Assembly: GCA_027078365.1 (NCBI GenBank)
Contig: JALWYQ010000001.1
Coordinates: forward strand, 124,001 to 188,000
Reading direction: 5' to 3'
Origin: Phycisphaerae bacterium
GTDB taxonomy: Bacteria; Planctomycetota; Phycisphaerae; Sedimentisphaerales; Sedimentisphaeraceae
Length of the DNA stretch: 64,000 nt
Shown: positions 14,368 through 59,644 of the stretch, piece after piece
Layout: each line of letters opens with the position of its first letter
Position numbering within the stretch: position 1 is the stretch's first letter
Notes under the pieces: model-generated
Told to the model about the DNA's origin: nothing
Database searches by the model: none
The model's input: only the letters and a program-made list of their open reading frames with translations
Program-made: the position numbers and the translations under genes

Positions 14368-15189
14368 TCACACCATACTGAGTTCAAGTTTATGCTTAAT
14401 CTTTTCCCAGCTTGGGATGACGGAATTAAGGAGCTCATAAAACTCCGGGCTATGATTATTGTGTTTTAGATGACACAATTCATGCGTAACAACATAGTCA
14501 ATACACTCTTTAGATGCTTTGACTAGATTTGTATTGAGGGTTACTGTGCCTCTGCTTGAGAGACTACCCCACCTTTTTTGCATTTGCTTAATGGACAGTT
14601 TAGGCTTGCTAATACCAAGGTTATTGAATTTCATCCAACAACGATCCATACTTTGCGCAAATTGAATCTGTGCCTTTTTCAAGTACCATTGATTTAAAAG
14701 TTTCTTGGTTATATCTGGAGTTGGCTTATTCTGGCAAGTGACATAAAAAAAGCCACGAGATAATTTGACGCAATTTTCCGGTCCTTCAGATAGCTTTAAA
14801 CGGTACTGCTTTCCAAGATACAGATGAGTCTCACCGCTGACGTAACATCGATCAGGTGTCTTTGGATTAAATTGATTGAAATAATTCAACTGTCTGAGAA
14901 TCCATCGCGCCCTCTTAATTATCTTTCTTTCTATCAATGTGATGTCTGATTGCAAGGGTGCTTTTACAACAACTGTACTGTCAGGGTGTACGGCAATTTC
15001 CATTGTTTTTCTTTTAACATGAATTAAGTTGTACTCAATTTCCTTTGAGCCATATTTAACCGCTAATTTGCGCGAACCGTCACTAATGTTTTTTGGAACC
15101 ACTAATTTGCACGAATTTGCACGAATTTTTTTTGGGGCTACAGATAAATGTGGATTAACATGTGTTTCTTTCAATTTCTTATTCATCAT
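14368..15189 (-). CDS. YgjP-like metallopeptidase (DUF45) coupled to hsdR
   Basis: A 273-residue protein. From about residue 45 it matches the YgjP family: EIEYNLIHVKRKTMEIAV; KIIKRARWILRQLNYF; KQMQKRWGSLSSRGTVTLN; and the zinc site VVTHELCHLKHNNHSPEFYE near residue 238. The first 45 residues are not family sequence. They include IRANSCKLVVPKNISDGSRK, which is the translation of the island's iteron repeat (15068-15135). The start overlaps the hsdR stop by four bases, so expression is coupled. YgjP-like genes are common next to type I restriction genes, where their role is not established. Confidence 0.85.
   Translation of the reverse strand: MMNKKLKETHVNPHLSVAPKKIRANSCKLVVPKNISDGSRKLAVKYGSKEIEYNLIHVKRKTMEIAVHPDSTVVVKAPLQSDITLIERKIIKRARWILRQLNYFNQFNPKTPDRCYVSGETHLYLGKQYRLKLSEGPENCVKLSRGFFYVTCQNKPTPDITKKLLNQWYLKKAQIQFAQSMDRCWMKFNNLGISKPKLSIKQMQKRWGSLSSRGTVTLNTNLVKASKECIDYVVTHELCHLKHNNHSPEFYELLNSVIPSWEKIKHKLELSMV
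15068..15135 (+). repeat. Iteron repeat copy inside the YgjP-like gene
   Basis: Plus strand shows CACTAAT, GGAACCACTAATTTG and two CACGAATTT-type units in the same order as intergenic copies. It is translated in frame as the extra N-terminal segment of the YgjP-like protein (about residues 18-40). Confidence 0.75.
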
Positions 15190-18100
15190 TTACTACTCGT
15201 CATTCTGAATTTTGCTACCTGTAATACTTTTGCAATAATACCATCCATCTGATCCAGCGACAATTCAATGCCTTTCTCTGTTTTGAGTTCATCGTAGAGG
15301 TAATCATCAATTTCGTTTTCAGTTTGTTTCTGAGCGTCTTCATCGTCCCAAAATTGAACTTTTGTATGCTTTTGAAGAATACCGTGTATTGCAATTGCAG
15401 TGTCGGCGGTGATTGATTCAAGATTTTCTTCACTTAAGTTATATTTTTTAAAGAACGGTTTTAATACACCATAATAGGCCATGGCATCCTCGTTGCCGGA
15501 GAGTTTCTCAGGTATATCATCATGAACTTTACCAACAACTTTATCGCGAACCTCTACTACTTTGTTCAGATAATCTAGCTCAGAGATTCTCTGAGCTCTG
15601 AAATCTTCAATTACTTGCTGGATTAGTTTTGAGAACTTTTCGTAAAACGCAGGATCCTCGTCTAGCTTTTCAGTGATCACCCTCTTTGTAGCGTGTGCAA
15701 TCGTATCTGCTTTTGACGCGGTAGTTTTTGAGCTACCGTATATATCATGGCTTTCCTTGATTTTAATAAAGGAGGCATCGTCAAAGATATTAACTGGTTT
15801 ATTGAGTTGGACAACTTCATTGGCTTGAATATGGGTATCCAACAGTTTCTTGATTTTTGGTTCATAATCTCGGTAATCAACGGCTTCAGCGTAACGCAAC
15901 TTAACAGATGCCTTAAGTGACTGAAATTTTCTAAGATCAGCCTTGTATCTTGACAAAGTTTTCTCGTCAGTTTCGATCAGGAATTTCTCACAAGATAGTG
16001 CGATACCAAGAGTTTTTCCAAACTCCGAAAGGCGGCTGTAAAACTCTTCTCTGATCTCATCATCTGCAAGCAGTACTTCATAAGCTTCTTCATCGTAAGA
16101 ATTCTTAACAGTTTTGAATATATCCCAAAGATCAGAATATCGGCTTGGCAATTTTTCTATTTCGCTATTAATGGAAGTCAGAGTGCCAACTAGATCGGAT
16201 TCATCAAACCCTTCAAATGCGCTGTACATGGTAAGTGCTTTATCTAGCTCACCGAGGACATTTGCGTAGTCGACAATAAATCCGAACTCCTTGCCTTCAT
16301 GGAGACGGTTGATTCGTGCAATTGCCTGAAGTAGCGTATGCTCTCTAAGAATCCTGCACAAATATAGAACCGCATTTCTTGGTGCGTCAAATCCGGTCAA
16401 CAGCTTATCAACGACAATAAGAATTTCAGGGTCACTGCCATGCTTGAATTGATTGATTAGTTGCTTGGTGTACTCTTGCTCACTGCCATAGCGTTTCATC
16501 ATTTTTTGCCAGAATTTTACGACCTCATCGGTTGTCTCGTCATCGATCTCTTCATAGCCTTCACGCATATCCGGTGGCGAGATAACAACCTCTGAACTGA
16601 CAATACCTATTTCATTCAGATAAGCATTATACTTGATCGCGGATACTTTGTTGGGAGCTACCAACTGTGCTTTGAATCCTGTTCCTTGCCAGTTGGAACG
16701 GAAATGTTCACTAATATCGAAGGCTCTCATGTAAATGACCTGATCCGCCTTATTCAACATTTCAGCACGTGCGTATTTTCGTTTGAGATCGGCTTGCTGC
16801 TCTTTGGTCAACCCTTGTGTATGCCTTTCAAACCATAAATCAACAGCCGACTGATTCTGTGTCATCTCTACATGACGACCTTCATACAAAAGCGGGACGA
16901 CAGCACCATCTTCGACTGCCTGTGTGATTGAATAATGGGGTTCTATTAGCTCACCAAATTTGATAAAATTGTTTTTTTCCTTTTTCAAAAGTGGCGTTCC
17001 TGTAAAACCTAAGTAGCAGGCACGAGGAAACATTTGCCTCATCCGTGCCGAAAAAGAGCCAAACTGAGTGCGGTGGCTTTCATCCACCAGAATAAAGATA
17101 TCGGGAGAATTATCTTGATACTTCTTTGCCGCATACGCCTTCTCAAATTTATGGATAAGGGTTGTGATAATGCCAGATTTTTTTTCAGTCACCAGCTCCA
17201 ACAGATTTCTTCCCGAGGTTGCCCGATTAGCTTCAAGACCGCAGGCAGCAAAAGTATTCCCTAGTTGTCTATCTAGGTCATCACGGTCTGTCACAAGAAC
17301 GATACGCGGATTCAAAATTTCAGGATCCAAGGCCAGATTACGTGCGAGTAGTACCATAGTCAGAGATTTTCCCGAACCTTGGGTGTGCCAGATCACACCG
17401 CCTTTTCGTGAACCGGTACTGTCAAAATGTTTTATCCGATTCAGTGTGGACTTAATGACAAAATACTGCTGATAACGGGCAATCTTTTTTGTGCCTCCAT
17501 CAAACACCGTAAACTTCCACGCCAACTCCAAAAGCCTTTCCGGACGGCAGAGGGAAAAAAGAGCTTTGTCCTGCTCGGTTACAAGACGCTCTTTTGAAAC
17601 CACTAATTCACACGAATTATCACTAATGTTTTTTGACTGCATGACCTCAAATGACTTTGGATCTATTTCAACATCAACAGATACATCTACAATCTTTTTT
17701 AATTTTTTAAATTCGTGTCCATTAGTGTCCATTCGTGGTTCTTTCCACACGGACCAAAATTTTGCAGCAGTTCCAGTGGTTGCGTACATGGCACTGTTCT
17801 TGTTTACAGCCATAACTAGTTGGCTATATATGAAGAGCTTCGGAATATAATCATCGTTTTGGTTTCTGATGGATTGTGAGATAGCTTGCTCTACTTCAAT
17901 TTGCGGCGATTTACATTCGATTACACAGAATGGAATGCCGTTAACAAAGAGAACTATATCCGGTCGGGCGGTCTCTGTACTTCGAGCACGCTCAACACTA
18001 AATTCAACCGTCACGTGAAACCTATTGCGGTCGGGATTGCGCCAGTCGATATAGTTTAGATTGAAGCTTTTTGAGTCACCCTCAATGGTTTGTTCCATAG

Positions 18101-18413
18101 CAGTGCCGAGAGTTACAAAATCATAGATGACCTCATTAGTCTTGAGTAGTCCGTCGTATTTGATATTTTTCAGCTTTTGGATAGCCGACTGTACATTCTC
18201 CTCGCTGAAGAGATACTCGCAACCTTTGTATCGAATGCGGTTGATTTTCTTGAGTTGGTTGCGCAGAATATTTTCCAATAAGACATTTGAGCTTCGCCCC
18301 TGACGTTCCTTCAATGCTTCTTCTGGAGAGATATATTCATAGCCCATCGCTACTAGTAGTTGCACTGCTGGTAGCTGGCTTGTTAGTTTTTCATTTGTTT
18401 GAAAATTGCACAT
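15186..18413 (-). CDS. hsdR: Type I restriction endonuclease subunit R
   Basis: A 1075-residue motor/nuclease subunit of normal size. The PD-(D/E)xK nuclease motif is RPDIVLFVNGIPFCVIECKS near residues 145-165. Walker A is TQGSGKS near 343 and the DEAD-like box DESHRTQFG near 443. Helicase domain 2 shows VDKLLTGFDAPRNAVLYL and QAIARINR. With HsdM and HsdS it would cleave unmodified DNA after translocation. Two copies of the island repeat are translated in frame (about residues 220-230 and 260-272) in the variable linker between nuclease and motor domains. The gene is intact. A third repeat copy lies just upstream of its start. Confidence 0.93.
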   Translation of the reverse strand: MCNFQTNEKLTSQLPAVQLLVAMGYEYISPEEALKERQGRSSNVLLENILRNQLKKINRIRYKGCEYLFSEENVQSAIQKLKNIKYDGLLKTNEVIYDFVTLGTAMEQTIEGDSKSFNLNYIDWRNPDRNRFHVTVEFSVERARSTETARPDIVLFVNGIPFCVIECKSPQIEVEQAISQSIRNQNDDYIPKLFIYSQLVMAVNKNSAMYATTGTAAKFWSVWKEPRMDTNGHEFKKLKKIVDVSVDVEIDPKSFEVMQSKNISDNSCELVVSKERLVTEQDKALFSLCRPERLLELAWKFTVFDGGTKKIARYQQYFVIKSTLNRIKHFDSTGSRKGGVIWHTQGSGKSLTMVLLARNLALDPEILNPRIVLVTDRDDLDRQLGNTFAACGLEANRATSGRNLLELVTEKKSGIITTLIHKFEKAYAAKKYQDNSPDIFILVDESHRTQFGSFSARMRQMFPRACYLGFTGTPLLKKEKNNFIKFGELIEPHYSITQAVEDGAVVPLLYEGRHVEMTQNQSAVDLWFERHTQGLTKEQQADLKRKYARAEMLNKADQVIYMRAFDISEHFRSNWQGTGFKAQLVAPNKVSAIKYNAYLNEIGIVSSEVVISPPDMREGYEEIDDETTDEVVKFWQKMMKRYGSEQEYTKQLINQFKHGSDPEILIVVDKLLTGFDAPRNAVLYLCRILREHTLLQAIARINRLHEGKEFGFIVDYANVLGELDKALTMYSAFEGFDESDLVGTLTSINSEIEKLPSRYSDLWDIFKTVKNSYDEEAYEVLLADDEIREEFYSRLSEFGKTLGIALSCEKFLIETDEKTLSRYKADLRKFQSLKASVKLRYAEAVDYRDYEPKIKKLLDTHIQANEVVQLNKPVNIFDDASFIKIKESHDIYGSSKTTASKADTIAHATKRVITEKLDEDPAFYEKFSKLIQQVIEDFRAQRISELDYLNKVVEVRDKVVGKVHDDIPEKLSGNEDAMAYYGVLKPFFKKYNLSEENLESITADTAIAIHGILQKHTKVQFWDDEDAQKQTENEIDDYLYDELKTEKGIELSLDQMDGIIAKVLQVAKFRMTSSK
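17598..17634 (+). repeat. Iteron repeat copy inside hsdR (plus orientation)
   Basis: AAACCACTAATTCACACGAA followed by TTATCACTAAT keeps the CAC(T/G)AAT units. It is read in the hsdR frame as NISDNSCELVVSK. Confidence 0.75.
17708..17746 (-). repeat. Iteron repeat copy inside hsdR (minus orientation)
   Basis: On the minus strand CACGAATGGA-CACTAATGGA-CACGAATTTA gives three units at exact 10-base period. It is read in frame as EPRMDTNGHEF. Confidence 0.8.
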
Positions 18414-18426
18414 GTGTAATCCTTTT

Positions 18427-18488
18427 AACCACTAAAGATGCTAGTTTTTGGAACCACTAATGGACACTAATAAACACTAATTTTTTTT
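18427..18488 (+). repeat. Iteron repeat copy upstream of hsdR
   Basis: A degenerate AACCACTAAAGATGCTAG is followed by the core CACTAATGGA-CACTAATAAA-CACTAATTTT (18455-18484). It sits between the AlbA_2 gene and hsdR, in the opposite orientation to the copies at 23.9-25.5 kb. It is followed by CCATAGAAAACACAGA, which resembles the companion repeat at 23.8 kb. Confidence 0.8.
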
Positions 18489-18559
18489 GACCATAGAAAA
18501 CACAGATGGTTATTTGCTTTATTTTTGTGTGTTCTGTTGTTGTGCTTAACTTTCATAAC

Positions 18560-19912
18560 TTAGCCCTTATTGCTTTCTATTATTTTCCAGTATCCTTCTT
18601 TACGACCACCTACTCGATGCAAGAAACCTTCGGCCTGAAGTTTCTGAATGTTGCGTTGAATAGACCGTTCCGTAACACCAATTTGTTCAGCCAGTTCGGG
18701 AATAGTGATCGATGGAGTTTCTCGACAGGCATCCAGAATCATACCCGACGTTTTCCCGACGTTTTCCCGACGCTTTCCCGACATATCTTCCGAGACAGAC
18801 TGGCCAGAAACGTGAGGTTTCAGTAGTTCTACTGCTACACCTCCGAAGCGTTCTTCAATCACAGGTTGAGGAAGTCCGTAGCGTTTGCACGCTTCAGTGA
18901 TTTTCTCCACGCCACGGCCCCAAGAGTCAATATAGCCAGCCTTATAGCAAATATCTGCAATTAGAGGGTTTCTTGGAAAAGATTCGTGCAGTTGAAACAG
19001 TTTTTCAATCGACAATTCCACTGGTAAAGTACCGGCATTCCACAGCGATATCCGGTCATTCATAACTCTGAGCTGAGTCATACTGCCCATGTAATTTCGA
19101 TGCACCATCGCATTGAGCAACATCTCTCGTAGAGCGGGAACGGGGTATTCAAGTTCTTCAATACGCCTTAGCCCCTCAAAGCGAATTGGCTTGATCAGAA
19201 ACTTTTTCTCTAGTTGCTCCATCACATCACGCAGCATCTGAAACAGATTTCCCTCGCATACTTCCTGAAATCGCATGTCCACTACGCTTTCACCAAATCG
19301 TCCAATTTTTACAAACAGATTGGGGTAGAACTTACTAGGGTCTTTGCCGAACAATACTAAAGCTGCGTTGGTTAATCCGTCGTCGGTGAGCAGATGTAGT
19401 TTTTTCAGAGTGTCTTCAGTGGAAAGCTCAGAAATATCTGGCAAGCGACCGGCGGTAGTAGATTCCCTTTTGAATAGCTCAATGGTCGTATCGTCGATGT
19501 CGTTCAATGTTGCCTTTTCTTCTACCACCCGATCCCAGGTCATGCCCATCTTTTTCAGTAAAAATTCCGTCAGTGCATGGCCTTTCAGCTCCTGCTTTAC
19601 CGAGCCTGACCTCCAGTAGTAGGAACCGCGCAAGGAGATTGGAACCGTTGATGGTTCTACGACAATTTCCAGATAGGTTTTGCCGTCCTCTTCCATCAGG
19701 TTGATGTGCGGCATCAACCCCAGCTGATCACGGATCTTATTCGGTAGATCTTCAAGTAGTTTCTTGGCGTTCGGCAAATCGACGATTTTACCTCGGTCAT
19801 CTTTTCCGATAAAAATCCGCCCACCCTGCGCATTGGCAAAACCACAGATCCATTTCAGATAATCATCTTGCCATGATTGTTTGAATTCGATATTTTGTGA
19901 TTCGGAAGTCAT
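18560..19912 (-). CDS. AlbA_2 (AAA_4) ATP-binding/transcriptional regulator-like protein with C-terminal wHTH
   Basis: About 450 residues. The N-terminal AlbA_2 (Schlafen-like) domain reads NIEFKQSW...WICGFANAQGGRIFIGKDD. The central domain includes LREMLLNAMVHRNY and ITEACKRYGLPQPVIEERFG. The C-terminal winged helix is SITIPELAEQIGVTERSIQR. The start is set at 19912, because ATG there overlaps the herA stop by four bases and gives the usual start MTSESQNIEFKQ. Such proteins often accompany restriction and defence genes. Tight coupling to sir2-herA suggests a third component or regulator of that module. An 11-bp tandem repeat (18742-18782) encodes the SGKRRENVGKTSG linker before the wHTH. Confidence 0.82.
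   Translation of the reverse strand: MTSESQNIEFKQSWQDDYLKWICGFANAQGGRIFIGKDDRGKIVDLPNAKKLLEDLPNKIRDQLGLMPHINLMEEDGKTYLEIVVEPSTVPISLRGSYYWRSGSVKQELKGHALTEFLLKKMGMTWDRVVEEKATLNDIDDTTIELFKRESTTAGRLPDISELSTEDTLKKLHLLTDDGLTNAALVLFGKDPSKFYPNLFVKIGRFGESVVDMRFQEVCEGNLFQMLRDVMEQLEKKFLIKPIRFEGLRRIEELEYPVPALREMLLNAMVHRNYMGSMTQLRVMNDRISLWNAGTLPVELSIEKLFQLHESFPRNPLIADICYKAGYIDSWGRGVEKITEACKRYGLPQPVIEERFGGVAVELLKPHVSGQSVSEDMSGKRRENVGKTSGMILDACRETPSITIPELAEQIGVTERSIQRNIQKLQAEGFLHRVGGRKEGYWKIIESNKG
18742..18782. repeat. 11-bp tandem repeat within the AlbA_2 gene
   Basis: About three and a half copies of the unit CGTCGGGAAAA (minus strand). Because 11 is not a multiple of three, successive copies are read in different frames. 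It encodes the flexible linker before the C-terminal wHTH, and a one-unit change would shift the frame and remove the wHTH. Confidence 0.75.
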
Positions 19913-21588
19913 TTTTGCTGTTTCCTTAAAGATTCCACAGCCTGTTCTATTCCTCTTTCTGACTTTGTCTTTTCCCACTCATCCCAAAAATCAACAGTTG
20001 CACTGTTTGGTTTAACACTTGGTGGATCAACTTTTATGCGGCTCGGTAAAAGAGACGCATCGCCTACGATCAAGCTTTCGCCAATATCAAGTACTGGTAG
20101 CATTTCAGAAAAATCACCGAGATTATCAGGAAACAATCGCTTTATAACATTTTGATCGTCAGGATTTGTTAGTCGCATAGCGATGAAGTTTCCACATTGG
20201 CTCAGTACTGTTTTATTCACATCCGATGGACGTTGACTAATCACAACGAGAGATAATCCATATTTCCGCCCCTCTTTTGCGATTCGCTCGAAACTTGCTA
20301 ACCCTTTTTCCTCCATACTACCTTTTAAGCTTGCCGGAATATAAAGGTGCGCTTCATCGCAAAACAATGCTACAGGATGTCTTTTTTTATCATCCATCCA
20401 TTGTTGAACAGAAAAAACCAAACGACCTATCAAACCAGAAATTAGAGGAAGTATGTCAGAGGGAACTTCTGAAAAATCGATAATCTTAAGTCCTTTTCCA
20501 TTACCGAAATCCAAGAGATTGGTAAGCAATGAGTTGAGCCAATCGTAAGCCAAAAGTTTGTCGTCTGCATTAAATATGAAATTTAAACGTTTATCTGACT
20601 GCTTGCTTTTCAGGCGTTGAATAAAGCGAGTTAACTTTCCATGAAGAGGCCCCTGTCTTTCCGACCTTGCTCCTGGAACCATTTCAGTGTCTTTTTCCCG
20701 TAAAGAAGAAAGAACTTTGCTAATTTCGTATGGAATTGGGCTTTCGACGGTAAAATTATCCAGCACATCTTGTTTATGCTCTGCTTCAAGTTTTTCCTTC
20801 TTGTACTTAATAATTAGATCAAAAAGTGTACGTGATTGATTAGGAGCATTGCTGTCACTGCGATCAAGCAGGAGAGACTCAATTTCCTCATAGGATAAAA
20901 GCCAGTATGGAAGAAAAATAATGTTGTTTTCATCTGGCTTATCAGAAGGTCCGGCAATCTTCAGAAGTGTTGTGTTTGGTAGTTTCTTTAGAGGTTTATA
21001 TTCACCGTGAAGGTCAAAAACCAAACTATTGATTGATTTTAGTTGGGTCGCCTTTTCTAGAATGTTAGCAACCGTCCACGATTTCCCGGAACCAGTTCCT
21101 CCAACGATGACGGCGTGACGTTGAAAAAATTTATTTCCATCCAAATTAGCGTCAGACTCATCAGATATTGTGTATTTCCCTATTTTTAGCGGGTTTTTAC
21201 TGTTAGATGAAATAATGTTCATAAATTCAGAAAGTTCACTACCTTGTAGCAGAAAACAATCAGCATCTATGCTCGGCACAGTGTTAAGCGTTCTCTTGAA
21301 AACATTACGCTCTGTTCCGATCGCATCCATAAGTGTTCCAACAAGATTTACCCGTATCAAATTTTCTACAACTAAATCCGGATCTGACTGATCATCAATT
21401 TTTTCGGAAACAGCTTTTCGCATAATCTTTGAAATCAAACCGATAATTTTCTCACCGGTTTTTGTAGAACGAATTTGAACGATTTGATTGATCTGAACGC
21501 TATTCAACAGTTCTTCATTATCTACTTGTACAGAAATATTTCCTGTATCTACGCTCTGAACTTTTCCAATTAAAATCTCATTACTCAT
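19909..21588 (-). CDS. herA: HerA-like ATPase (DUF87) of a SIR2-HerA type defence module
   Basis: About 559 residues. An N-terminal barrel-like region (EILIGKVQSVDTGNISVQV; GEKIIGLISKI) resembles the HAS-barrel of HerA. Walker A is VGGTGSGKSWTVANIL near residue 166. Walker B is HPVALFCDEAHLYIPAS near 411, followed by RIAKEGRKYGLSLVVISQRP and NKTVLSQCGNFIAMRL, all typical of HerA/FtsK-type hexameric translocases. The ATG at 21588 is preferred over an upstream TTG because the sir2 stop is one base away. SIR2-HerA pairs are known antiphage systems (Nezha type) in which both proteins form a complex that depletes NAD or degrades DNA. Here the pair sits inside an hsd operon. Confidence 0.87.
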   Translation of the reverse strand: MSNEILIGKVQSVDTGNISVQVDNEELLNSVQINQIVQIRSTKTGEKIIGLISKIMRKAVSEKIDDQSDPDLVVENLIRVNLVGTLMDAIGTERNVFKRTLNTVPSIDADCFLLQGSELSEFMNIISSNSKNPLKIGKYTISDESDANLDGNKFFQRHAVIVGGTGSGKSWTVANILEKATQLKSINSLVFDLHGEYKPLKKLPNTTLLKIAGPSDKPDENNIIFLPYWLLSYEEIESLLLDRSDSNAPNQSRTLFDLIIKYKKEKLEAEHKQDVLDNFTVESPIPYEISKVLSSLREKDTEMVPGARSERQGPLHGKLTRFIQRLKSKQSDKRLNFIFNADDKLLAYDWLNSLLTNLLDFGNGKGLKIIDFSEVPSDILPLISGLIGRLVFSVQQWMDDKKRHPVALFCDEAHLYIPASLKGSMEEKGLASFERIAKEGRKYGLSLVVISQRPSDVNKTVLSQCGNFIAMRLTNPDDQNVIKRLFPDNLGDFSEMLPVLDIGESLIVGDASLLPSRIKVDPPSVKPNSATVDFWDEWEKTKSERGIEQAVESLRKQQK

Positions 21589-21589
21589 A

Positions 21590-22552
21590 TTACAAGATCT
21601 CCATAAATTTATTGAGTTGCCAATAATCATCGTCAATTATCAGCGTTTCTTTGGATTCATCTTTCCCTGTTTTTATTAGAACTGATGTTTGTCCTGTGGT
21701 TTCACTTTCTTGCAGCAAAATATATTTCTGAGCATTTTTTAGTTCATCGCGACAACTTTGGGTGATTTTCTTTGTGATCAATACTAAAGGTGTTCCACTA
21801 TTGACCTTTTCTTTGATCTTTGGTGTCAAGTGTTCATCATTGAACCCAAAGCCCACGACAAGAAAACTTGATGCGTTATTTATGAGGTTGTCTGATTTCT
21901 GAATTAAATCACGATACGGAGTTTTGTATGCTTCTTGGTATTTATTTTTCCCAGGAGAAATAATAACTGGCTCAGAGCTTTCGCAATCCATCATTAGATA
22001 TCGAACACTGCTGTCAACTCGAAACCAGCTAAGAGAGCCATGTACCTTTATCAGGTTTGTAATATTTTTATCGGTGAAAAGGTCTCCATTGAATATATTA
22101 AATTCACGCTCTCCAAAGCCGTCTGTGAATGGGATACCGTAAAATCCCATCACATGTTCAATGACTCGGTCATAATTGGTCGTAATAATGTTTACAACTT
22201 GAGGATGCACGGATCGGATTTTCTCAATCATGTTTTTTATGCTATCAAACGTGTCCGTCTCGCCATTAACCAATTTACGACGTACTTTGGCATCCGCATT
22301 ATTGACAGTATTCCAAATTATTCTTCTTATTTCAGGCATTTGATCGTTGTATTTAGCTTTCCCCAATTCAGTCTCCAAATTTTCATTAGTTTGGTTAAAA
22401 TTGTGCAATTTATTTTTCAGTGTATTATTCAGATCTTCCATTGTCGGCAACCCAAACGGCACTGTTGCCCCTGCCCCCCAGATAATAACAGGTGGATTCT
22501 TCAGAAATGTTTGAATTGTTGAAAAAGTCTTTTCTTTTGATTGATCACTCAT
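21590..22552 (-). CDS. SIR2-like NADase-family defence protein
   Basis: A 320-residue protein with the SIR2_2 pattern: the nucleotide loop VIIWGAGATVPFGLPTMEDL near residue 18, IITTNYDRVIEHVMGF (the conserved TTNYD), LIKVHGSLSW (the catalytic-type His) and LVVGFGFNDEHL. Bacterial SIR2-like defence proteins hydrolyse NAD+ upon phage infection. Its start codon shares one base with the hsdS stop (TAATG) and its stop is one base from herA, so hsdS, sir2 and herA are translationally linked. The NADase activity is family knowledge, not shown by the sequence. Confidence 0.86.
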   Translation of the reverse strand: MSDQSKEKTFSTIQTFLKNPPVIIWGAGATVPFGLPTMEDLNNTLKNKLHNFNQTNENLETELGKAKYNDQMPEIRRIIWNTVNNADAKVRRKLVNGETDTFDSIKNMIEKIRSVHPQVVNIITTNYDRVIEHVMGFYGIPFTDGFGEREFNIFNGDLFTDKNITNLIKVHGSLSWFRVDSSVRYLMMDCESSEPVIISPGKNKYQEAYKTPYRDLIQKSDNLINNASSFLVVGFGFNDEHLTPKIKEKVNSGTPLVLITKKITQSCRDELKNAQKYILLQESETTGQTSVLIKTGKDESKETLIIDDDYWQLNKFMEIL

Positions 22553-23748
22553 TATTCATACTTCCTTACTACATTTGGCTTAATTCTCCACTCACCTGTC
22601 AACAGACGCTGCATCAGCCCGCGTTTTTGGGTTTTGTATTTTTCTGTGAGTTGCTTCAACAGGTCGATTTCCTGCTGGGCGTCGGATAAGGCTTCAGCGA
22701 TTTGCTTTTGTTCTTCAATAGATGGAAGAGGCATTTTAACTTCACTAAAATGCGGAAATTTAAGATTCCATGTATCTGAGGTTAACCCCTGCGAATATCT
22801 ATAAAATCGATGAATCATAAATGGCATCTTGAACAGATATGCGACAAACTGCGGGTACAGTTTCTCTCCCGGGATACAAATTGTATAGGCAGGGCTCACG
22901 ATCCCCTCCATTGTTGAAAGGGCGGAGACTCCTTGCCACATCCTCATCGTGTTATAGCCAATATCTCCAGGACAAATCCGAAGATATTTAGATTTATCCT
23001 TGTTGGATGTGTCTTTCCTGTTCGTGTCTTCACGAGGGATCACCCCTTCGCCATTTGTTATGGAAAGAAGTGGTAAATCATCTCGCTTGGTTTCTTTACG
23101 TTCCTTGAAAAGTGATTTTGTCCTTACCTGTTTCCATTTACCTTCTACGGTAGGCACATAAATCAGATCATTTAGTAGTCGTTTAAACCGTTTTTCTTTT
23201 ACCTGAATCAGCTGTTCAGTTTTTTCGATGGCCTCATCCCAGGTGGAGAGTAGATCTGCAATGGCTTTTTGCTCTGGGAGTGGGGGAAAAGGTATCTTGA
23301 CTTTGTCGTAAGTTTCAGTTGTCAGTCCAAACCTTGTGATCCCATTTGCGTATCTATAAAAGTCATACGATATTCTTGGATGCGTCAGTGAAAGGGATAG
23401 AAATCTTCCATCTACATGTTTCTTTGGTCTCAATATTGTTAAATGATATCCGCAAAGCAATTTTTTTCTAACACTTTGGATATATGTTGGTATTCCAATG
23501 TCATCAGCGCTTTCAGAATCTTTTGTTATTACAACATCGTTAGGGCAAAGCGAAAATCGATCAATTTCCCCTTGTTTAGCAGTTGCTTTCATAAACTGCA
23601 TATTTTTAGTAATTATAGAGTTGTAATATACATCAGTATAGTTGCACAAAACCACTGGTATTTCGTCTGGCATTGTTTTTTTGTCGACTGGACTGGTGAT
23701 TACTTTTGTTATAGCACTTATTGCTTTTTCTGAAAAGATTTTACTCAT
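22552..23748 (-). CDS. hsdS: Type I restriction-modification specificity subunit (full length)
   Basis: About 398 residues with the usual two-fold layout. Target-recognition domain 1 spans about 1-150, with conserved helix 1 at PLPEQKAIADLLSTWDEAIE. Domain 2 spans about 195-345, with helix 2 at PSIEEQKQIAEALSDAQQEI and the closing KRGLMQRLLTGEWRI. It would fix the recognition sequence of the HsdM/HsdR complex. The start at 23748 is chosen for its Shine-Dalgarno (GGGGAGG seven bases upstream). It is separated from hsdM by three small cassette-like genes and immediately followed by sir2. Confidence 0.9.
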   Translation of the reverse strand: MSKIFSEKAISAITKVITSPVDKKTMPDEIPVVLCNYTDVYYNSIITKNMQFMKATAKQGEIDRFSLCPNDVVITKDSESADDIGIPTYIQSVRKKLLCGYHLTILRPKKHVDGRFLSLSLTHPRISYDFYRYANGITRFGLTTETYDKVKIPFPPLPEQKAIADLLSTWDEAIEKTEQLIQVKEKRFKRLLNDLIYVPTVEGKWKQVRTKSLFKERKETKRDDLPLLSITNGEGVIPREDTNRKDTSNKDKSKYLRICPGDIGYNTMRMWQGVSALSTMEGIVSPAYTICIPGEKLYPQFVAYLFKMPFMIHRFYRYSQGLTSDTWNLKFPHFSEVKMPLPSIEEQKQIAEALSDAQQEIDLLKQLTEKYKTQKRGLMQRLLTGEWRIKPNVVRKYE

Positions 23749-23814
23749 CGCCAAACCTCCCCTGTAATTTTGCGGAGTTTTGAATTATGAAGACTAAGTA
23801 CCAAACTCATTCCC

Positions 23815-23884
23815 AACCATAGAACACACGGAATACACAGAAAAAAACAAATAATCTTTTTCATGTTGTTCTGTGTATTCCGCA
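23815..23884. repeat. Companion inverted repeat
   Basis: CGGAATACACAGAA (near 23829-23842) and its near-complement TTCTGTGTATTCCG (near 23869-23882) face each other across about 26 bases. They follow CCATAGAACACA. Shorter versions (CTGTATGCCCCATGG near 24251; ATGTGTATTCCATGG near 24568) precede other iteron copies, so the two elements travel together. Confidence 0.65.
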
Positions 23885-23889
23885 GTTCA

Positions 23890-23925
23890 AATAATTCGTG
23901 AAAATTAGTGTCCATTAGTGGTTCC
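23890..23925 (-). repeat. Iteron repeat copy at the 3' end of the DinD-like gene
   Basis: On the minus strand GGAACCACTAATGGACACTA continues as ATTTTCACGAATTATT: three CAC(T/G)AAT units spaced ten bases. The DinD-like frame ends inside it as GTTNGH-stop. Confidence 0.85.
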
Positions 23926-24186
23926 CTCCTTTGGAAAGCTTAGAGCCCTTGATCTACCATTCTGGACCATTTTACTGACGTCGGTAAAATGGTTCTCCAC
24001 AGGAACATTGGAATTTTCGCAGGCTATCTTAGCTTTACCAATAACCTCTACAAAATTCTGCCATTTTGTATACCCAAGTTTTTCCATCAAATCCCGGGCA
24101 TACCAAAATTCTGCTGTTTCCCCCGAAACATGTTGGACAATAGTATCAAATGCGTTTGTCAGTCTGACAATGGTATTTTTATCCAT
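23905..24186 (-). pseudogene. Truncated DinD/BRO-N-like gene ending in a repeat
   Basis: A 93-residue frame. Residues 1-70 match the start of DNA-damage-inducible protein D-like (BRO-N related) proteins: GETAEFWYARDLMEKLGYTK, WQNFVEVIGKAKIACENSNV and ENHFTDVSKMV. Full-length relatives are roughly three times longer. After KMVQNGRSRALSFPKE the frame enters the iteron repeat and ends GTTNGH-stop, so the C-terminal part has been lost and replaced. The start has a GGGGGC upstream. It could still make a short protein, but is most simply a deletion derivative. Confidence 0.7.
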
Positions 24187-24187
24187 T

Positions 24188-24232
24188 TGTTAGCCCCCAG
24201 TTACTAATCCCGTCGAATTTGACGGGATTAAA
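24188..24232. repeat. 5' cassette block with perfect palindrome
   Basis: TAATCCCGTC (24205-24214) and GACGGGATTA (24221-24230) form a perfect 10-bp inverted repeat around GAATTT, just upstream of the DinD-like start. A diverged version (TAAATCCGTCGAATTTGA) occupies the same position before the KilA-N gene (about 25415-25460), including the CCATTTGTTA junction at the start codon. Confidence 0.65.
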
Positions 24233-24269
24233 CACCATTTCCATGTTGTTCTGTATGCCCCATGGTTCA

Positions 24270-24305
24270 AATAATTCGTGAAAATTAGTGTTCATTAGTG
24301 GTTCC
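24270..24305 (-). repeat. Iteron repeat copy between DinD-like and DUF1016 genes
   Basis: Same core as the copy at 23890-23925, with one change (GAACAC for GGACAC), in the same orientation. It lies 20 bases past the stop of the DUF1016 remnant. Confidence 0.85.
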
Positions 24306-24325
24306 TTTACTTTTCTTTGCAGGTC

Positions 24326-24544
24326 TCATTTGTTCAATTGTGACACCAGTGGTGACACAATCTCAAAATCAGGAAATTGCTCCGCAGATTGCATGTTGAT
24401 ACGTTTCTCAACTTGCCAATAGGTTAGTGTAATGACACTGTTTACTGCTATTACAGCCTGATGCTTTCCCTGTTCAATAAGTTTGCGCAGATCATTTAAC
24501 AGGGCGTTTGTGTTATTATCAAATAATTGATTACTATCACTCAT
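24326..24544 (-). pseudogene. Internally deleted DUF1016 (YhcG-like) nuclease gene
   Basis: A 72-residue frame. LLNDLRKLIEQGKHQAVIAV and LTYWQVEKRINMQ match the N-terminal domain of DUF1016/YhcG proteins (usually over 300 residues, with a C-terminal PD-(D/E)xK domain). Directly after this the frame jumps to AEQFPDFEIVSPLVSQL, a stretch that in relatives lies some 25-30 residues further on, and stops. The middle of the N-terminal domain and the whole nuclease domain are missing. ATG at 24544 is preferred; an upstream extension (MNHGIHIKTWKE) is translated repeat. Confidence 0.75.
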
Positions 24545-24585
24545 CGCTAATTCTTTCCATGTTTTTATGTGTATTCCATGGTTCA

Positions 24586-24621
24586 AATAATTCGTGAAAA
24601 TTAGTGTCCATTAGTGGTTCC
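24586..24621 (-). repeat. Iteron repeat copy at the 3' end of the KilA-N gene
   Basis: The same 36-bp core as at 23890-23925. The KilA-N frame ends in it as RGNH-stop, a different reading frame from the DinD-like and half-HsdS ends. Confidence 0.85.
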
Positions 24622-25414
24622 CTCTCAGCTGTTTCGTGGTTCTATCCTTCACCAGCAATTTCATTTGCTGAATAGCCGTCTGGTTCAGTCGTTGCAATCG
24701 TTCAGGCTGGCTTAATCCCTCCTGAATAAAATGAGCATTCAAATTCTCCAGATTAGCTAGGCATACCAGTTGAGAGACATTGGCGAAATCTCGAATATTA
24801 CCTTTTTCACCAGGGTTTTCATCACGCCACTGCTTCGCGGTTTTGCCAAAGAGTGCCATATTAAGAATATCTGCTTCGGAAGCGTAAACCAGATTGATCT
24901 GTTCTTTGCCGAGTTCCTGCGGAATCAGGTGTTCTTTAATGGCGTCGGTATGAATGCGGTAGTTGATTTTGGTGAGTTGACGCCTGACGTCCCAGCCAAG
25001 CTGCTTAAGCTCTTCATTTTTAAGCCGTTGAAATTCTTTAACAAGATAAATTTTAAACTCTGCACTAATCCACATACCAAATTCAAAAGCAATGTCCGGA
25101 TGTGCATAGGTGCCTCCGTATCTTCCTGCTTTTGCCTGTAAACCGATGGCATTAGTTTTTGCTACCCACTCTTTGACACTTATCTTGTAGCTATTAAGCC
25201 CTGCCTGACTTTTAATTGTGGCGAATTCGCCATAATTAAAATCGGGGTTATGAACTCGTTCCCATATCCCAAGGTATTCAACAGTGTTACGATTTCGAAG
25301 CCAATCTGTGATGAAAAAATTTCCATCTTTTGAACGTAGCATGTCGGTAAGAGAGATGTAATTCTCTTTGGTTATGCGAATTTCTTCGTTCAAAACGGTG
25401 ATTGTTTTAGCCAT
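24611..25414 (-). CDS. KilA-N domain protein
   Basis: A 267-residue protein. The N-terminal KilA-N domain is visible in ENYISLTDML, WLRNRNTVEYLGIWERVHNP and GRYGGTYAHPDIAFEFGMWI. The C-terminal half is helical and includes LVYASEADILNMALFGKTAK and QERLQRLNQTAIQQMKLLV-type sequence. KilA-N is a DNA-binding domain common in phage and mobile-element proteins, and similar genes occur in restriction loci. Its last residues (RGNH) are encoded by an iteron repeat copy, and its 5' flank shares a block with the DinD-like gene. The start has GGGAG eleven bases upstream. Confidence 0.85.
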   Translation of the reverse strand: MAKTITVLNEEIRITKENYISLTDMLRSKDGNFFITDWLRNRNTVEYLGIWERVHNPDFNYGEFATIKSQAGLNSYKISVKEWVAKTNAIGLQAKAGRYGGTYAHPDIAFEFGMWISAEFKIYLVKEFQRLKNEELKQLGWDVRRQLTKINYRIHTDAIKEHLIPQELGKEQINLVYASEADILNMALFGKTAKQWRDENPGEKGNIRDFANVSQLVCLANLENLNAHFIQEGLSQPERLQRLNQTAIQQMKLLVKDRTTKQLRGNH

Positions 25415-25495
25415 TTGTTAACTCCCAATTTCTAAATCCGTCGAATTTGAAGAATTTAAAATGTCTTTTTGCTTCGTTCTTTTTGCGGTTCTCAA

Positions 25496-25531
25496 AATAA
25501 TTCGTGAAAATTAGTGTACATTAGTGGTTAC
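25496..25531 (-). repeat. Iteron repeat copy at the 3' end of hsdM
   Basis: The same core, with GGTAACC for GGAACC and GTACAC for GGACAC. The hsdM stop codon TAA is the first in-frame codon of the repeat. Confidence 0.85.
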
Positions 25532-27123
25532 CTCTGAATCTGCTGAAGCTTCTCAGCCATCTTACCCCGCACCTCTGCTAGCTCTTTCTCTAATGCGTCA
25601 ATCTCCTTTTGAACCTCATCAATATCAATGGGTTCTTCTTCCTCAAAGGTATCCACATAACGGGGGATATTGAGGTTAAAATCATTTTCCTTGATCTCTT
25701 CAAATTCGGCTACATGGGCGTATTTTTCTACCTCCTTACGCTCCTTGTAAGTGCGCATAATCTTTTCAATATGTTCTTCGCTGAGCGTGTTCTGATTTTT
25801 AGCTGATACAAACTCCCTACTGGCATCAATAAACAATACACTGGATTCGTGTTTATTTGTGTCCATTCGTACTTGTTCTCTTCCCCGATCAAAGACCAAA
25901 ATTGCCACCGGAATATTGGTGGTCGGGAAGAGATTGCCCGGCAGTCCAATCACTGCATCAAGTAAATTTTCCTCTATCATCTTCCGGCGAATGCGACCTT
26001 CGGCTGCGCCTCGGAACAGAACGCCATGGGGAACTACAACGGCAACTCGTCCCTCTTTTTCAAGGGCGGTTTCCACCATATGGCTAATAAAAGCCCAGTC
26101 TCCTTTGCTTTTAGGTGGCACCCCGCGCCAGAAGCGGTTGTACTGATCACTCTCGGCATTTTCAGCGCCCCATTTGTCTAATGAGAATGGTGGATTGGCC
26201 ACCACGCAGTTGAATTTCATGAGCCGATCATTTTCCACCAACAGTGGACTGTTCAGAGTGTCGCCCCATTCAATCCTGGCACTGTCAAAGCTGTGCAGGA
26301 ACATGTTCATTCGGCAAAGCGCCCATGTGCTACCGTTGGATTCCTGTCCGAAGAGGGCAAAGTTACGTTTTTCGCGATCATCTTTAGCATTTCTGGCCAC
26401 CTCACGAGCAGCCTGAACCAAAAGACCACCCGATCCACAGGCCGGATCGCAGATACGATCTCCCGGTTTTGGGCCTGCCAGCTTTGCTACCAGTTCGGTT
26501 ACCTTCAGTGGAGTAAAGAACTCTCCAGCCTTCTTTCCAGAATCAGAGGCAAAACGCTCAATCAGGTAAATATAGGTGTTACCGATTACATCCTCGGATA
26601 CGAAGCTAGGCTTCATGTTGAGCTGAGGTTTATGAAAATCCTCTAGCAGTTGTTTCAGGCGGCGGTTGCGGTCTTTGGTTTTACCGAGATTGGCTTCACT
26701 GTTGAAATCGATGTTACGAAAAACACCTTCAAGCTTGCTCTTGTTACTTTCTTCAATGTGGTCGAGGACAATGTTGATCAGTTCACCGATATTTGCAGTG
26801 GATCGGCGTTCATAAAGGCTGTAATAGGTGGCAGGGAACTCGTCGAGAACCGTCTCTTCGCCTGTTTTATCATTTTTTTCGGTGAGTTTCACCACGGGGA
26901 GAACAAAACGCTCACGCTTCAGCTTGCGGCGAATACGGACATCATCATCCCCATACTGCTTCCGGTAGGCCTCGTAATGATCCAGCCACACATCGGATAT
27001 ATACTTTAAAAACAGCATCACAAGGATGTAGTCTTTGTACTGCGCTGGATCAACAACACCTCTGAAGGTGTCACATGCCGCCCAGGCCGCGTTGTTGATG
27101 TCTTTTTGATCAATCTTGTTCAT
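25528..27123 (-). CDS. hsdM: Type I restriction-modification methyltransferase subunit M
   Basis: About 531 residues. The helical N-terminal domain starts DINNAAWAACDTFRGVVDPA. The SAM motif DPACGSGGLL is near residue 228 and the N6-adenine catalytic motif NPPF (CVVANPPFSLDKWG) near 308. A C-terminal coiled coil reads EEEPIDIDEVQKEIDALEKE. It methylates adenine in the HsdS-defined site. The ATG at 27123 has AAGGAG seven bases upstream. Near residue 420 the segment REQVRMDTNKHESSVLFID contains translated iteron repeat in a normally variable loop. Upstream lies a 46-bp tandem repeat. Confidence 0.93.
   Translation of the reverse strand: MNKIDQKDINNAAWAACDTFRGVVDPAQYKDYILVMLFLKYISDVWLDHYEAYRKQYGDDDVRIRRKLKRERFVLPVVKLTEKNDKTGEETVLDEFPATYYSLYERRSTANIGELINIVLDHIEESNKSKLEGVFRNIDFNSEANLGKTKDRNRRLKQLLEDFHKPQLNMKPSFVSEDVIGNTYIYLIERFASDSGKKAGEFFTPLKVTELVAKLAGPKPGDRICDPACGSGGLLVQAAREVARNAKDDREKRNFALFGQESNGSTWALCRMNMFLHSFDSARIEWGDTLNSPLLVENDRLMKFNCVVANPPFSLDKWGAENAESDQYNRFWRGVPPKSKGDWAFISHMVETALEKEGRVAVVVPHGVLFRGAAEGRIRRKMIEENLLDAVIGLPGNLFPTTNIPVAILVFDRGREQVRMDTNKHESSVLFIDASREFVSAKNQNTLSEEHIEKIMRTYKERKEVEKYAHVAEFEEIKENDFNLNIPRYVDTFEEEEPIDIDEVQKEIDALEKELAEVRGKMAEKLQQIQR
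25848..25878 (-). repeat. Diverged iteron repeat copy inside hsdM
   Basis: On the minus strand TACGAATGGA-CACAAATAAA-CACGAATCCA keeps three units at 10-base period. It is read in frame as RMDTNKHES. Confidence 0.7.
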
Positions 27124-27140
27124 GTGATACTCCTTAATTT

Positions 27141-27313
27141 TAACCACTAATGGATACTAATTTCCACGAATATATTAAGTGCTTGTGAATCACTAATGGA
27201 CACTAATTTCCACGAATATATTAAGTGCTTGTGAATCACTAATGGACACTAATTTGCACGAATATGTTAAAGTTTTCGTAAACCATGAAAGGGTACTAAT
27301 TTTTACTAATATT
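27141..27313 (+). repeat. 46-bp tandem repeat built on the iteron core, upstream of hsdM
   Basis: Three copies begin at 27145, 27191 and 27237, exactly 46 bases apart. Each has CACTAATGGA-CACTAATTTC-CACGAATATA followed by TTAAGTGCTTGTGAAT, then a decayed tail with TACTAATTTTTACTAAT. It fills the space between the GxxExxY gene and the hsdM start and is inverted relative to the neighbouring single copies. Confidence 0.9.
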
Positions 27314-27315
27314 TT

Positions 27316-27699
27316 TTATAGAACGATTCGTTCCCATTCTAGGGTGGCATGTTTGAAATTTAGTAAAATCCCAACTCGAAGGCCGGTAATCTTTAAGTAA
27401 TTAATAATTTGTGCCCTTTCGTTATTTCCGATTTTCTCAATTGTTTTTAAATCCACAATGATTTTATCAAATACCAGCAGATCAGGAATATACTCACCTA
27501 CTTTTACCGATTTGTAAACGACTTCATATCTAGGTTGCTGAGTATAAGGAATCCCATTTTGTCGAAACTCTACGACCATCGCATTTTCATAGGGTTTTTC
27601 GAACAATCCATGCCCCAGCGTATTTAATACCTCCATGGCACACCCTACAATCTGATAAACCTCATTCTTGAGGAATAATTCGTGTTCATTAGTGTCCAT
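27316..27699 (-). CDS. GxxExxY protein
   Basis: A 127-residue protein of the GxxExxY family: VYQIVGCAMEVLNTLGHGLF, then EKPYENAMVVEF, IPYTQQPRYEVVYKSVKVGE and IPDLLVFDKIIVDLKTIEKI. The VGEYIPDLLV...IIVDLK pattern resembles a PD-(D/E)xK nuclease core. No biochemical role is established that I know of. Its start codon and first residues (MDTNEHELF) are translated iteron repeat, and its start lies 11 bases inside the end of the half-HsdS gene. It is read in a different frame of the same repeat that ends the half-HsdS gene. Confidence 0.85.
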   Translation of the reverse strand: MDTNEHELFLKNEVYQIVGCAMEVLNTLGHGLFEKPYENAMVVEFRQNGIPYTQQPRYEVVYKSVKVGEYIPDLLVFDKIIVDLKTIEKIGNNERAQIINYLKITGLRVGILLNFKHATLEWERIVL

Positions 27700-27709
27700 T
27701 AGTGGTTCC
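27674..27709 (-). repeat. Iteron repeat copy supplying both a stop and a start codon
   Basis: On the minus strand CACTAATGGA-CACTAATGAA-CACGAATTAT. Read in one frame it ends the half-HsdS gene (GTTNGH-stop); in another it gives ATG and MDTNEHE of the GxxExxY gene. Confidence 0.88.
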
Positions 27710-28377: not shown

Positions 28378-28455
28378 CTTTCAGGGAGGGGTTGCGTTTG
28401 GGGAATTGTCAGTTGATGCCACTTGCGTCTACCGGGGTCTTTGTCCCGCGAAAAA

Positions 28456-28807
28456 TGGAGGCGGCGGGATTTGAACCCGCGTCCTGTGATATTTCATGCA
28501 AGGTTTCTACATGCTTAGTCGTTTGTTTAATCTCGCCATCGCAAACGTCAAACGACAGACTTTTGCAATGACCAGTTCGTAAATCTTGCCCGATTGGTCC
28601 GAACAAGCCAACCAAGCCAGCTCGCTTTTTGACGCCAAGCTAACTCTCACGAGCAAAGAGTTAGGTGGCGGGCCGCTCTAATTAGGCAGCCATTGCGTAG
28701 TTATTTACGCCAATTAAAATTTAATTGAGAGATTTTTAACGGGCCAACTCTCATCCCGTGCATGCTACACTTGCAATCCAATTATCCAGTCGATACCAGT
28801 CGCCCCC
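28456..28807 (-). ncRNA. ssrA: tmRNA (transfer-messenger RNA)
   Basis: On the minus strand the 5' end GGGGGCGACTGGTATCGAC pairs with the 3' end CGCCTCC-A to form the tRNA-like acceptor stem, and the T arm reads GCGGGTTCAAATCCCGC. CCA is not fully encoded. The tag frame lies at 28711-28682 and reads GVNNYAMAA-stop (resume codon probably GGC), ending in the expected small hydrophobic residues. It rescues stalled ribosomes with SmpB. A T5 run follows the 3' end. The defence island begins right after this 3' end. Confidence 0.93.
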
Positions 28808-52359: not shown

Positions 52360-52605
52360 TCTCCATAAAGCTAGCTTAAATATACTACTTAAGGGCTATT
52401 TGCTCAAGTGAAATAGTTATAAACCATAATATTTGTTTGGGAATATTCAGCCTTTCTCGCCATCGTTACTCTTTTTTATGAAAAACAAGCAAGTTTTCAT
52501 TAAATGTAAGCTGGTTATTGTCGAGTTACTACATGCGGTATTGGCTACCAAAAGGTAGCTCGGTTAATGTTTGTAGTTTTTAAGGTTTAGTCATGGAGGA
52601 TTAAT

Positions 52606-53088
52606 ATGGCTATGGTAGAACAAAAGCAAAAATCTTTGTCTGGCAAGTATCTTTCGTTCTTTCTAGATGAAGAGGAATATGGCATTGAGATCCTCAAGGT
52701 TCGTGAGATCTTTGCCTACACATCAATTACTCAGATACCACGTACTCCAGCTTATGTGTTGGGCGTTATCAATCTGCGTGGCAGCGTTATTCCAGTTGTT
52801 GACTTGCGCATCAAGTTTGGAATGGCAAGTAGCGAAATAACAGATTCTTCTTGCATCATTGTTGTTGAGATAAATAATGGCTCAAGTGTCGTTCCAACAG
52901 GAGTCTTGATTGATAGGGTCTCTGAGGTTATGGAGGTCACGCAAGAGCAGATTCAAGAATCACCGGAGTTTGGCTCTAGTATCAATACTGATTTTATTCT
53001 TGGCATGGCCAAGGTTGGCAGCTCAGTCAAGATACTGCTTGATATCGATAGAATATTTGTTGGTTCTAATTTGGATTCACTAGTTTAA
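52606..53088 (+). CDS. cheW: Chemotaxis coupling protein CheW (copy 1)
   Basis: A 160-residue CheW domain protein: YLSFFLDEEEYGIEILKVRE, ITQIPRTPAYVLGVINLRGS, VIPVVDLRIKFGM and a C-terminal VKILLDIDRIF. CheW links receptors to CheA. It is nearly identical, at DNA level too, to the copy at 59144-59626, differing at about eight residues. CheA is not in the window. GGAGG precedes the ATG. Confidence 0.95.
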   Translation: MAMVEQKQKSLSGKYLSFFLDEEEYGIEILKVREIFAYTSITQIPRTPAYVLGVINLRGSVIPVVDLRIKFGMASSEITDSSCIIVVEINNGSSVVPTGVLIDRVSEVMEVTQEQIQESPEFGSSINTDFILGMAKVGSSVKILLDIDRIFVGSNLDSLV

Positions 53089-53108
53089 TTTCTAATGGAG
53101 ATGAAAAA

Positions 53109-54329
53109 ATGAAACTCAAGATTTATTTCATAGCGATGCTGTTACTATCTGCGCAGCTCTCATTGGCACAAGAGGTGGATTTGTTTGGTAGTGGTAGTGA
53201 GGGAATCGATTTTGCCGTTAGCACTACAAATGTCTATCAAAATAATGTGCATGGTGGAACCTCAACACACAATAGACGCGGTAGATTTACAGGTAGCTAC
53301 GATCTTGAGTTGACACTTGATTTTGAGAAGTTGCTTGGCTGGGATAATGCTCAGTTCTACATTGATGCAGCCGGAAGTTATTCAGATGTTAGTATTGATG
53401 ATACATCTATAGGAAGCTTCTTTGGCACAAACGCCGACTCTGGAGAACGCAGAGCCCTTGATGTTACAGAGGCGTGGTATCAGCAGTCTTTCTTTGATAA
53501 GACACTCGAGATGCGCGTTGGTAAGATAAGTTTAACCGGTGGTTTTGAATGCAGAGATGTTCCAGTAGCATTTGACACAAGCTTTTTTGCTAATGATGAG
53601 AACACTCAATTCCTAAACGGCGCGCTTGTCAATAACCCAGCAATTCCATTTCCAGATAATGGCCTTGGATTAGCTATATATTGGAATCCAACAGAATCAT
53701 GGTATGTGTCTTTAGCTGTCTCTGATGCAAAGGCAGATGAGAGAGAGACAGGTTTTAAGACTGCTTTTGATGGAAATGATGATTACTTCTACATTGGAGA
53801 GACCGGTATTGTATCTGCGATAGACTCAGCCAATGGTGAGCTAGTTGGAGCTTACAGAGTTGGTGGTTGGATAGATGGTCAGGACAAGGCAGATTTTGAT
53901 ACTGGCAAAAACTCAAAACATGATGCAGGCTTTTATATCAATTGCGATCAAATGTTGATAAAAGAAAATAATATTGAAGATGACTCTCAAGGTCTCGGTG
54001 TTTTTGCTAGGTATGGCTGGGCTAATGAAGACAGAAACGACATGAAAGAGTTTTGGAGCTTTGGTCTAAGCTACCAAGGCCTGTTTGAAGGTCGCGACGA
54101 CGATGTTCTTGGTGTTGGATTTGCGCATGGGGCGTTTAGCGACAAAGCCGGTGCAAATGATGGCGTTGGTTTCTCGGAGGACAACGAAGAAGTATGCGAA
54201 ATCTTCTACAACGCACAAATCAACGAGTGGCTTTCAATCGCACCTGATTTACAGTATGTGAAAAATCCAGGCGGAAACGGCAATTCTGATGCAGTCGTTT
54301 TAGCTGTTAGAGCACATGTCGAATTTTAA
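53109..54329 (+). CDS. OprB-like carbohydrate porin
   Basis: A 406-residue outer-membrane beta-barrel. A signal peptide (to about 20, SAQLSLAQ) precedes repeated amphipathic strands, with the family stretches FTGSYDLELTLDFEKLLGWD, VTEAWYQQSFFDKTLEMRVG, FLNGALVNNPAIPFPDNGLG and a C-terminal Phe after VRAHVEF, the barrel assembly signal. OprB porins take up sugars. It is placed between CheW and an MCP, which suggests that uptake and sensing of the same nutrients are linked. Confidence 0.82.
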   Translation: MKLKIYFIAMLLLSAQLSLAQEVDLFGSGSEGIDFAVSTTNVYQNNVHGGTSTHNRRGRFTGSYDLELTLDFEKLLGWDNAQFYIDAAGSYSDVSIDDTSIGSFFGTNADSGERRALDVTEAWYQQSFFDKTLEMRVGKISLTGGFECRDVPVAFDTSFFANDENTQFLNGALVNNPAIPFPDNGLGLAIYWNPTESWYVSLAVSDAKADERETGFKTAFDGNDDYFYIGETGIVSAIDSANGELVGAYRVGGWIDGQDKADFDTGKNSKHDAGFYINCDQMLIKENNIEDDSQGLGVFARYGWANEDRNDMKEFWSFGLSYQGLFEGRDDDVLGVGFAHGAFSDKAGANDGVGFSEDNEEVCEIFYNAQINEWLSIAPDLQYVKNPGGNGNSDAVVLAVRAHVEF

Positions 54330-54348
54330 TATTTGAAGGGGATATAGA

Positions 54349-59626: not shown

Positions 59627-59644
59627 TTTCTGAGGAGAGGTTTT

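Follow-up and report, generated by a model that had tools for sequence, protein, structure and literature searches.

How do two stretches of repeat DNA come to be translated, in frame and in opposite orientations, within a type I restriction subunit that otherwise appears whole? The question is posed by hsdR in the window, the entire 64,000-nucleotide stretch of Phycisphaerae DNA analysed here, for which the first-pass annotation proposed a 30-base, ten-codon element that inserts without disturbing the frame and is adapted to, or filtered for, harmless insertion into coding sequence, in the manner of the Rickettsia palindromic elements (RPEs). Both copies do lie in the linker between nuclease and motor domains, that is, between HSDR_N (which ends at residue 216) and the motor (from about residue 312), and both match the array pattern without a mismatch. 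The protein is also intact, as had been claimed: its HSDR_N, SWI2/SNF2 and ResIII domains supply the nuclease and motor of a type I HsdR, it scores above the cut-off of the NCBIfam hsdR model, and it is 87% identical to the homologue at locus L034.

Each array is made of three units of 10 bp, each consisting of CACKAAT and a spacer of 3 bp, with an outer end of ACCAC/GTGGT, and was searched for as ACCAC..A....CAC..A....CAC..A. Allowing up to three mismatches, the repeat 17-mer has 21 matches in the window against 0.16 expected, and across all 2.29 Mb of the genome the 28-base core is matched 17 times and the reversed-pattern control once. Fourteen of the 17 fall inside C1:139060-151705 (window 15060-27705, or 12.6 kb) and the other three lie elsewhere. 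This island, from 15.0 to 27.7 kb, contains the hsdR, hsdM and hsdS genes of a type I RM system together with SIR2-like, HerA-like and KilA-N genes and a GxxExxY nuclease gene (Table 1). Coding copies, first noticed within HsdR, also occur outside it, one in frame in HsdM and two in a YgjP-like gene. Separately, a 77-nt repeat present in three to four copies at 23852-24624 joins a second unit type (ACGGAA/ACAGAA-like, with a period of about 9) to the main array.

Table 1. Genes and arrays of the repeat-bearing island, in window coordinates.
Feature	Coordinates	Strand	Remarks
YgjP-like metallopeptidase gene	14368..15189	-	adjoins hsdR
Two arrays, 39 bp apart	15059..15125 (15059-15086, degraded; 15098-15125)	+	both translated in frame, within the extended N terminus of the YgjP-like product
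hsdR, type I restriction endonuclease subunit	15186..18413	-	intact; 1075 aa, single open frame
Right HsdR array	17592..17630 (pattern match 17599-17626)	+	opposite orientation; reads NISDNSCELVVSK, residues 262-274
Left HsdR array	17709..17741 (pattern match 17712-17739)	-	reads EPRMDTNGHEF, residues 225-235
Array	18453..18480	+	just upstream of hsdR; L050 has an array at a similar place
Three arrays	23895-23922, 24275-24302, 24591-24618	-	in or around gene junctions
Array at hsdM stop	25501..25528	-	
hsdM, N6 adenine methyltransferase subunit	25528..27147	-	
In-frame array inside hsdM	25846..25873	-	reads QVRMDTNKHESS; stands in place of the KGG... loop
Three tandem arrays, 46-bp period	27143..27262	+	next to the GxxExxY gene; the first runs into the initial codons of hsdM, if its longest frame is taken
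GxxExxY / PDDEXK_3 nuclease gene	27316..27699	-	PF13366 / TIGR04256 match
Array at the opposite flank of the GxxExxY gene	27679..27706	-	inverted relative to 27143-27262

We compared the HsdR copies with homologues, 61 of 72 loci entering the alignment (L091, L099, L100, L104, L105, L106, L110 and L116-L119 were left out as partial or more distant, and L041 was left out of the homologue comparison). The left copy adds no codon and aligns without gaps to repeat-free relatives, whose counterparts (EPQMDNGEREF in L034 and L052, EPLMEKGEREF in L035 and L060, EPQMDQNGLEY in L094) have several residues in common with EPRMDTNGHEF. Since repeat-free relatives possess some of the same amino acids, the proposed insertion is partly contradicted at this site. 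The right copy is seven or eight codons longer than the homologues, most of which have no counterpart to it, and the stretch between the two arms is native linker. In DNA of the same register, the array scores 18-25 of 33 at the left site of most close repeat-free homologues, and in L052, L053, L054, L055, L060, L062 and L094 no second in-frame position in hsdR does as well; L112, L059 and L061 score 7-10, the level of chance. Scores of 18-25 imply either an old array that was renewed or a native sequence that was overwritten, and, as far as sequence comparison goes, the left copy could be such a renewed, eroded array, or native sequence, rather than a new arrival.

HsdR was modelled with AlphaFold2 (mean pLDDT 77). 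The right copy falls within a stretch of very low confidence (residues 254-274, pLDDT below 50); the left copy is part of a confidently modelled coil (pLDDT about 85) that leads into a helix at residues 233-245. EcoR124I HsdR (2w00 and others) is the closest solved relative, and the gap between two aligned stretches is about 30 residues there versus about 74 in the window protein.

The remaining coding copies occupy other genes. At the place where the window HsdM has GREQVRMDTNKHESSVLFIDASRE, all 11 homologues compared, which represent several phyla and lack the array, have REKGG and some seven native residues; the net change is two added codons, and the DNA that was replaced is unlike the array, its score being at chance (over its full length, HsdM of L094 and of L112 is 88% identical to that of the window). 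The two YgjP-like arrays have their equivalent in Nitrospira L065, with two arrays at the same place and likewise at 39-bp spacing, and HsdS of L055 reads SRMDTNNHKW at residue 221. We also observed further arrays deep in long ORFs, at L137 453-2591, L133 890-1693 and L249 436-1323, one of these ORFs being Toprim/DnaG_N primase-like.

It had been stated that no stop is read in the tolerated frames. The island consensus is not stop-free, for it holds a stop in four of its six frames and is open in two. Two copies, left HsdR and HsdM, are read in sense, in a frame that is open (MDTN.HE); the antisense copies (right HsdR and the two in the YgjP-like gene) use a frame that in the consensus is closed by TAG at the middle unit. 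The stop-forming base on the array strand is G in all three antisense coding copies and T in all nine other copies (3/3 versus 0/9 changed; Fisher p = 1/220, calculated by hand, with the two YgjP copies possibly being duplicates). This difference indicates that coding copies were filtered by selection, with no need of an adapted element. Of the two possibilities originally offered, filtering is upheld; adaptation is not, since an element with stops in four of six consensus frames was not built for read-through.

A likely source of the arrays is suggested by the GxxExxY gene at 27.2-27.7 kb, a PF13366 ORF for a nuclease of the PD-(D/E)XK type that stands between inverted arrays of CAC units. 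Similar cassettes of about 400 bp, with GxxExxY proteins between oppositely oriented arrays, are found at L126, L134 and L142, and a GxxExxY match is present in 96 of the 199 genomes in our sample of the window's phylum. From the genomes with a match we tested the best-scoring loci, one per genome, in 30 of 96 for GxxExxY, 30 of 66 for PemK and 30 of 102 for PF05635. Flanking inverted repeats beyond those of shuffled sequence, nearly all of them short-unit arrays, surround 26 of the 30 GxxExxY genes as compared with none of 29 PemK genes. With contig-edge loci excluded the GxxExxY count is 22 of 25 at the gene and 0 of 25 at each shift (−750 and +750 bp), and the PemK count is 1 of 28 at each position. 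A fixed-pattern test with at most two mismatches gave inverted pairs at 4/30 GxxExxY and 0/30 PemK loci, counts that are lower because only periods of 9-10 bp were allowed.

The units of the GxxExxY arrays vary (ACAGAG, ACGGAG, ACGAAG, ATGAAG and others), and the two arms of an element tend to resemble each other. In five genomes, 18 of 20 elements have arms that score above the genome's mean cross-element pair; in G012 the arms of all six elements beat every cross pair (33-42 versus 31 or less), and in G142 three of five elements exceed the cross-pair maximum of 28. L280 and L284 are without clear arms, and the arms of L283 are weak. That most of the GxxExxY genes tested lie between matched inverted arrays peculiar to the element suggests a mobile-element role. 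In the open-access literature searched, we found no paper on GxxExxY arrays or stating the function of GxxExxY.

We therefore consider it probable, on balance, that the arrays of GxxExxY cassettes give rise to further copies, that these overwrite DNA in the vicinity, and that selection keeps those survivors that are in frame. In the window, cassette arrays would have been copied to nearby sites during break repair, mostly replacing resident DNA instead of inserting cleanly. Such copies would have reached hsdR (twice), hsdM and the YgjP-like gene and would have been kept at loops and linkers where the frame stayed open. The GxxExxY nuclease, or the repair of breaks that it makes, may both copy arrays to new sites and keep the arms of a pair alike; template switching in a hairpin might do the latter as well. 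If so, the coding copies suggest that arrays can rewrite parts of conserved enzymes with the frame unbroken, through replacement and filtering.

The link between HsdR arms and cassette is suggestive at the level of repeat units. The window genome and the genomes of L065 and L081 (G405 and G415) each have a single GxxExxY match, and its arms share a unit type with those of HsdR, so that the types agree in three of the four genomes with CAC-type linkers. The following observations count against cassette-seeded copying, as does the possibility noted above that the left HsdR copy is a renewed array or native sequence: no target-site duplication was found; the genome of L050 (G392), which may be incomplete, has HsdR arrays but no GxxExxY match; G395, G396 and G420 have GxxExxY and an HsdR without arrays; and the period-7 HsdR arms of L112 are unlike the GxxExxY type and nearer to arrays found at PF05635 genes.

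The HsdR linker is a recurrent site. Inverted arms reach p = 0.002, the floor set by 500 codon shuffles, in five of 58 linkers, the next best value being 0.022 (58 of 62 rows were tested; no linker was obtained from L101, L107, L111 or L121). Four of the five had been spotted by eye before the test, and the fifth, L112, by eye just before it. Their units differ: CACKAAT at period 10 in the window, CACGAAA at period 9 in Nitrospira L065, CACAGAA/CACGGAA at period 9 in Desulfobotulus L081, degraded CACGGAA at period 9 in L050, and AATGGAY at period 7 in Desulfobacter L112. The same two HsdR sites thus hold inverted arrays that match each other within a genome and are unlike between genomes, and with periods of 9 or 7 in the homologues the ten-codon unit is not general. 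Between L053 and L065, DNA identity is about 90% along HsdR and about 50% in the linker block, the most variable part of the protein in this pair. In an HsdR tree of 40 rows, in which L112 carried no label, the four CAC-type linkers fail to group as a single clade; they require three changes, and one change was seen in 0% of 200 bootstrap trees, but support is weak and the bootstrap not settled, so the tree cannot decide between a single origin and several. The CAC-array pattern itself is present in 19 of the 38 genomes with HsdR relatives, at 0-266 copies per genome (controls 0-2). Searches for HsdR in plasmids gave only relatives below 60% identity, viral contigs gave two loci, both without arrays, and a second search, of 395 whole genomes, gave one more close homologue (L152), also without an array.

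These linkers also lend themselves to another reading, which we regard as a serious possibility though not the one we would back: the HsdR linker of this clade held arrays before the clade spread, and gene conversion has since refreshed them, repair rewriting them to match nearby arrays or, by template switching in a hairpin, the opposite arm. Unlike units in matched arms at the same sites would be expected from such rewriting, and the seven repeat-free homologues that fit the array best in its exact register at the left site (L052 and the others named above) argue for it. Refreshing fits poorly with the HsdM copy, where unrelated native DNA was replaced, and with the right HsdR copy, for which most homologues offer no counterpart. 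Conversion may also act alongside the cassette-seeded overwriting that we prefer.

It is unlikely, in our view, that the arrays are instead an RPE-like MITE, a non-autonomous element bounded by terminal inverted repeats, capable of clean insertion and open in frame by design. RPEs are elements of about 150 bp whose open frame specifies a conserved peptide (PMC10969869, PMC2229807). The likeness drawn at the outset is real in part: the window arrays are in-frame repeats within unrelated genes (three genes of one operon), the proteins are intact, and the inverted pair has hairpin potential. However, the unit here is an array of three 10-bp repeats, the coding copies mostly replace DNA, and native linker separates the HsdR arms, which does not fit the insertion of a whole unit of some 100-150 bp. 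Net length changes of the coding copies are 0, +6 and +21/24 bp; all are multiples of three and none is +30, which does not support a clean ten-codon insertion. Nor is there a conserved open frame, given the stopped consensus frames and the use of both orientations. As for bacterial MITEs more generally (ERIC, Correia, RUP), the arrays are similarly small, interspersed and sometimes fused in frame, and inverted ends are present around GxxExxY and in the HsdR linker. They differ in being internally periodic and in varying between elements of one genome. No target-site duplication was seen; in the comparison of L053 with L065 the whole linker block differs, with no clean junction from which an empty site could be read.

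That a hairpin, in mRNA or DNA, is the object of selection in its own right, for HsdR regulation or for protection of the RM island, is in our judgement improbable. In RNA folds of the four CAC-type linkers the arms do pair to close the structure (z of −3.0, −6.3, −4.1 and −4.5), so that an arm-closed hairpin has been kept with four different sequences, but 53 of 58 linkers are without clear arms, and within hsdM the array lacks a second arm with which to pair. Chance resemblance or ordinary divergence of a linker that is in any case variable, as between L053 and L065, was rejected as having next to no likelihood in view of the 21 matches against 0.16 expected, the concentration within 12.6 kb of all but three of the 17 genome-wide matches, and the five linkers at p = 0.002.

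A second family of genes has similar surroundings. PF05635 four-helix-bundle genes (L240-L269) have inverted flanking repeats in 27 of 30 cases, or 26 of 27 without contig-edge loci, mostly as arrays of units of about 7 bp. Members of this family (S23p) are found in 23S rRNA intervening sequences (IVS), cassettes of about 430 bp in which stem-forming inverted repeats enclose a small ORF (PMC4990558). The window cassette, too, is a small ORF between inverted repeats, but its product is GxxExxY (PF13366 / TIGR04256) and not PF05635, its setting is an RM island rather than rRNA, and the repeats around it are 10-bp CAC units. We tentatively extend the proposal, as a conjecture that may well prove wrong, to the idea that GxxExxY nucleases and, separately, PF05635 proteins drive a large class of mobile cassettes with inverted micro-arrays private to each element. 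The nuclease would cut array-like sites and repair would copy the array in, the arms staying matched while the unit drifts; coding DNA could be overwritten, and the HsdR linker would be a recurrent landing site for unlike units.

Two other features of the window deserve mention. A tmRNA gene at 28453-28807, the sole match in an Rfam scan, adjoins the restriction island; tmRNA genes are a common integration place for genomic islands. Several large ORFs at 52593-61258, which are probably paralogous genes, contain direct repeats 300 bp long and as much as 97% alike.
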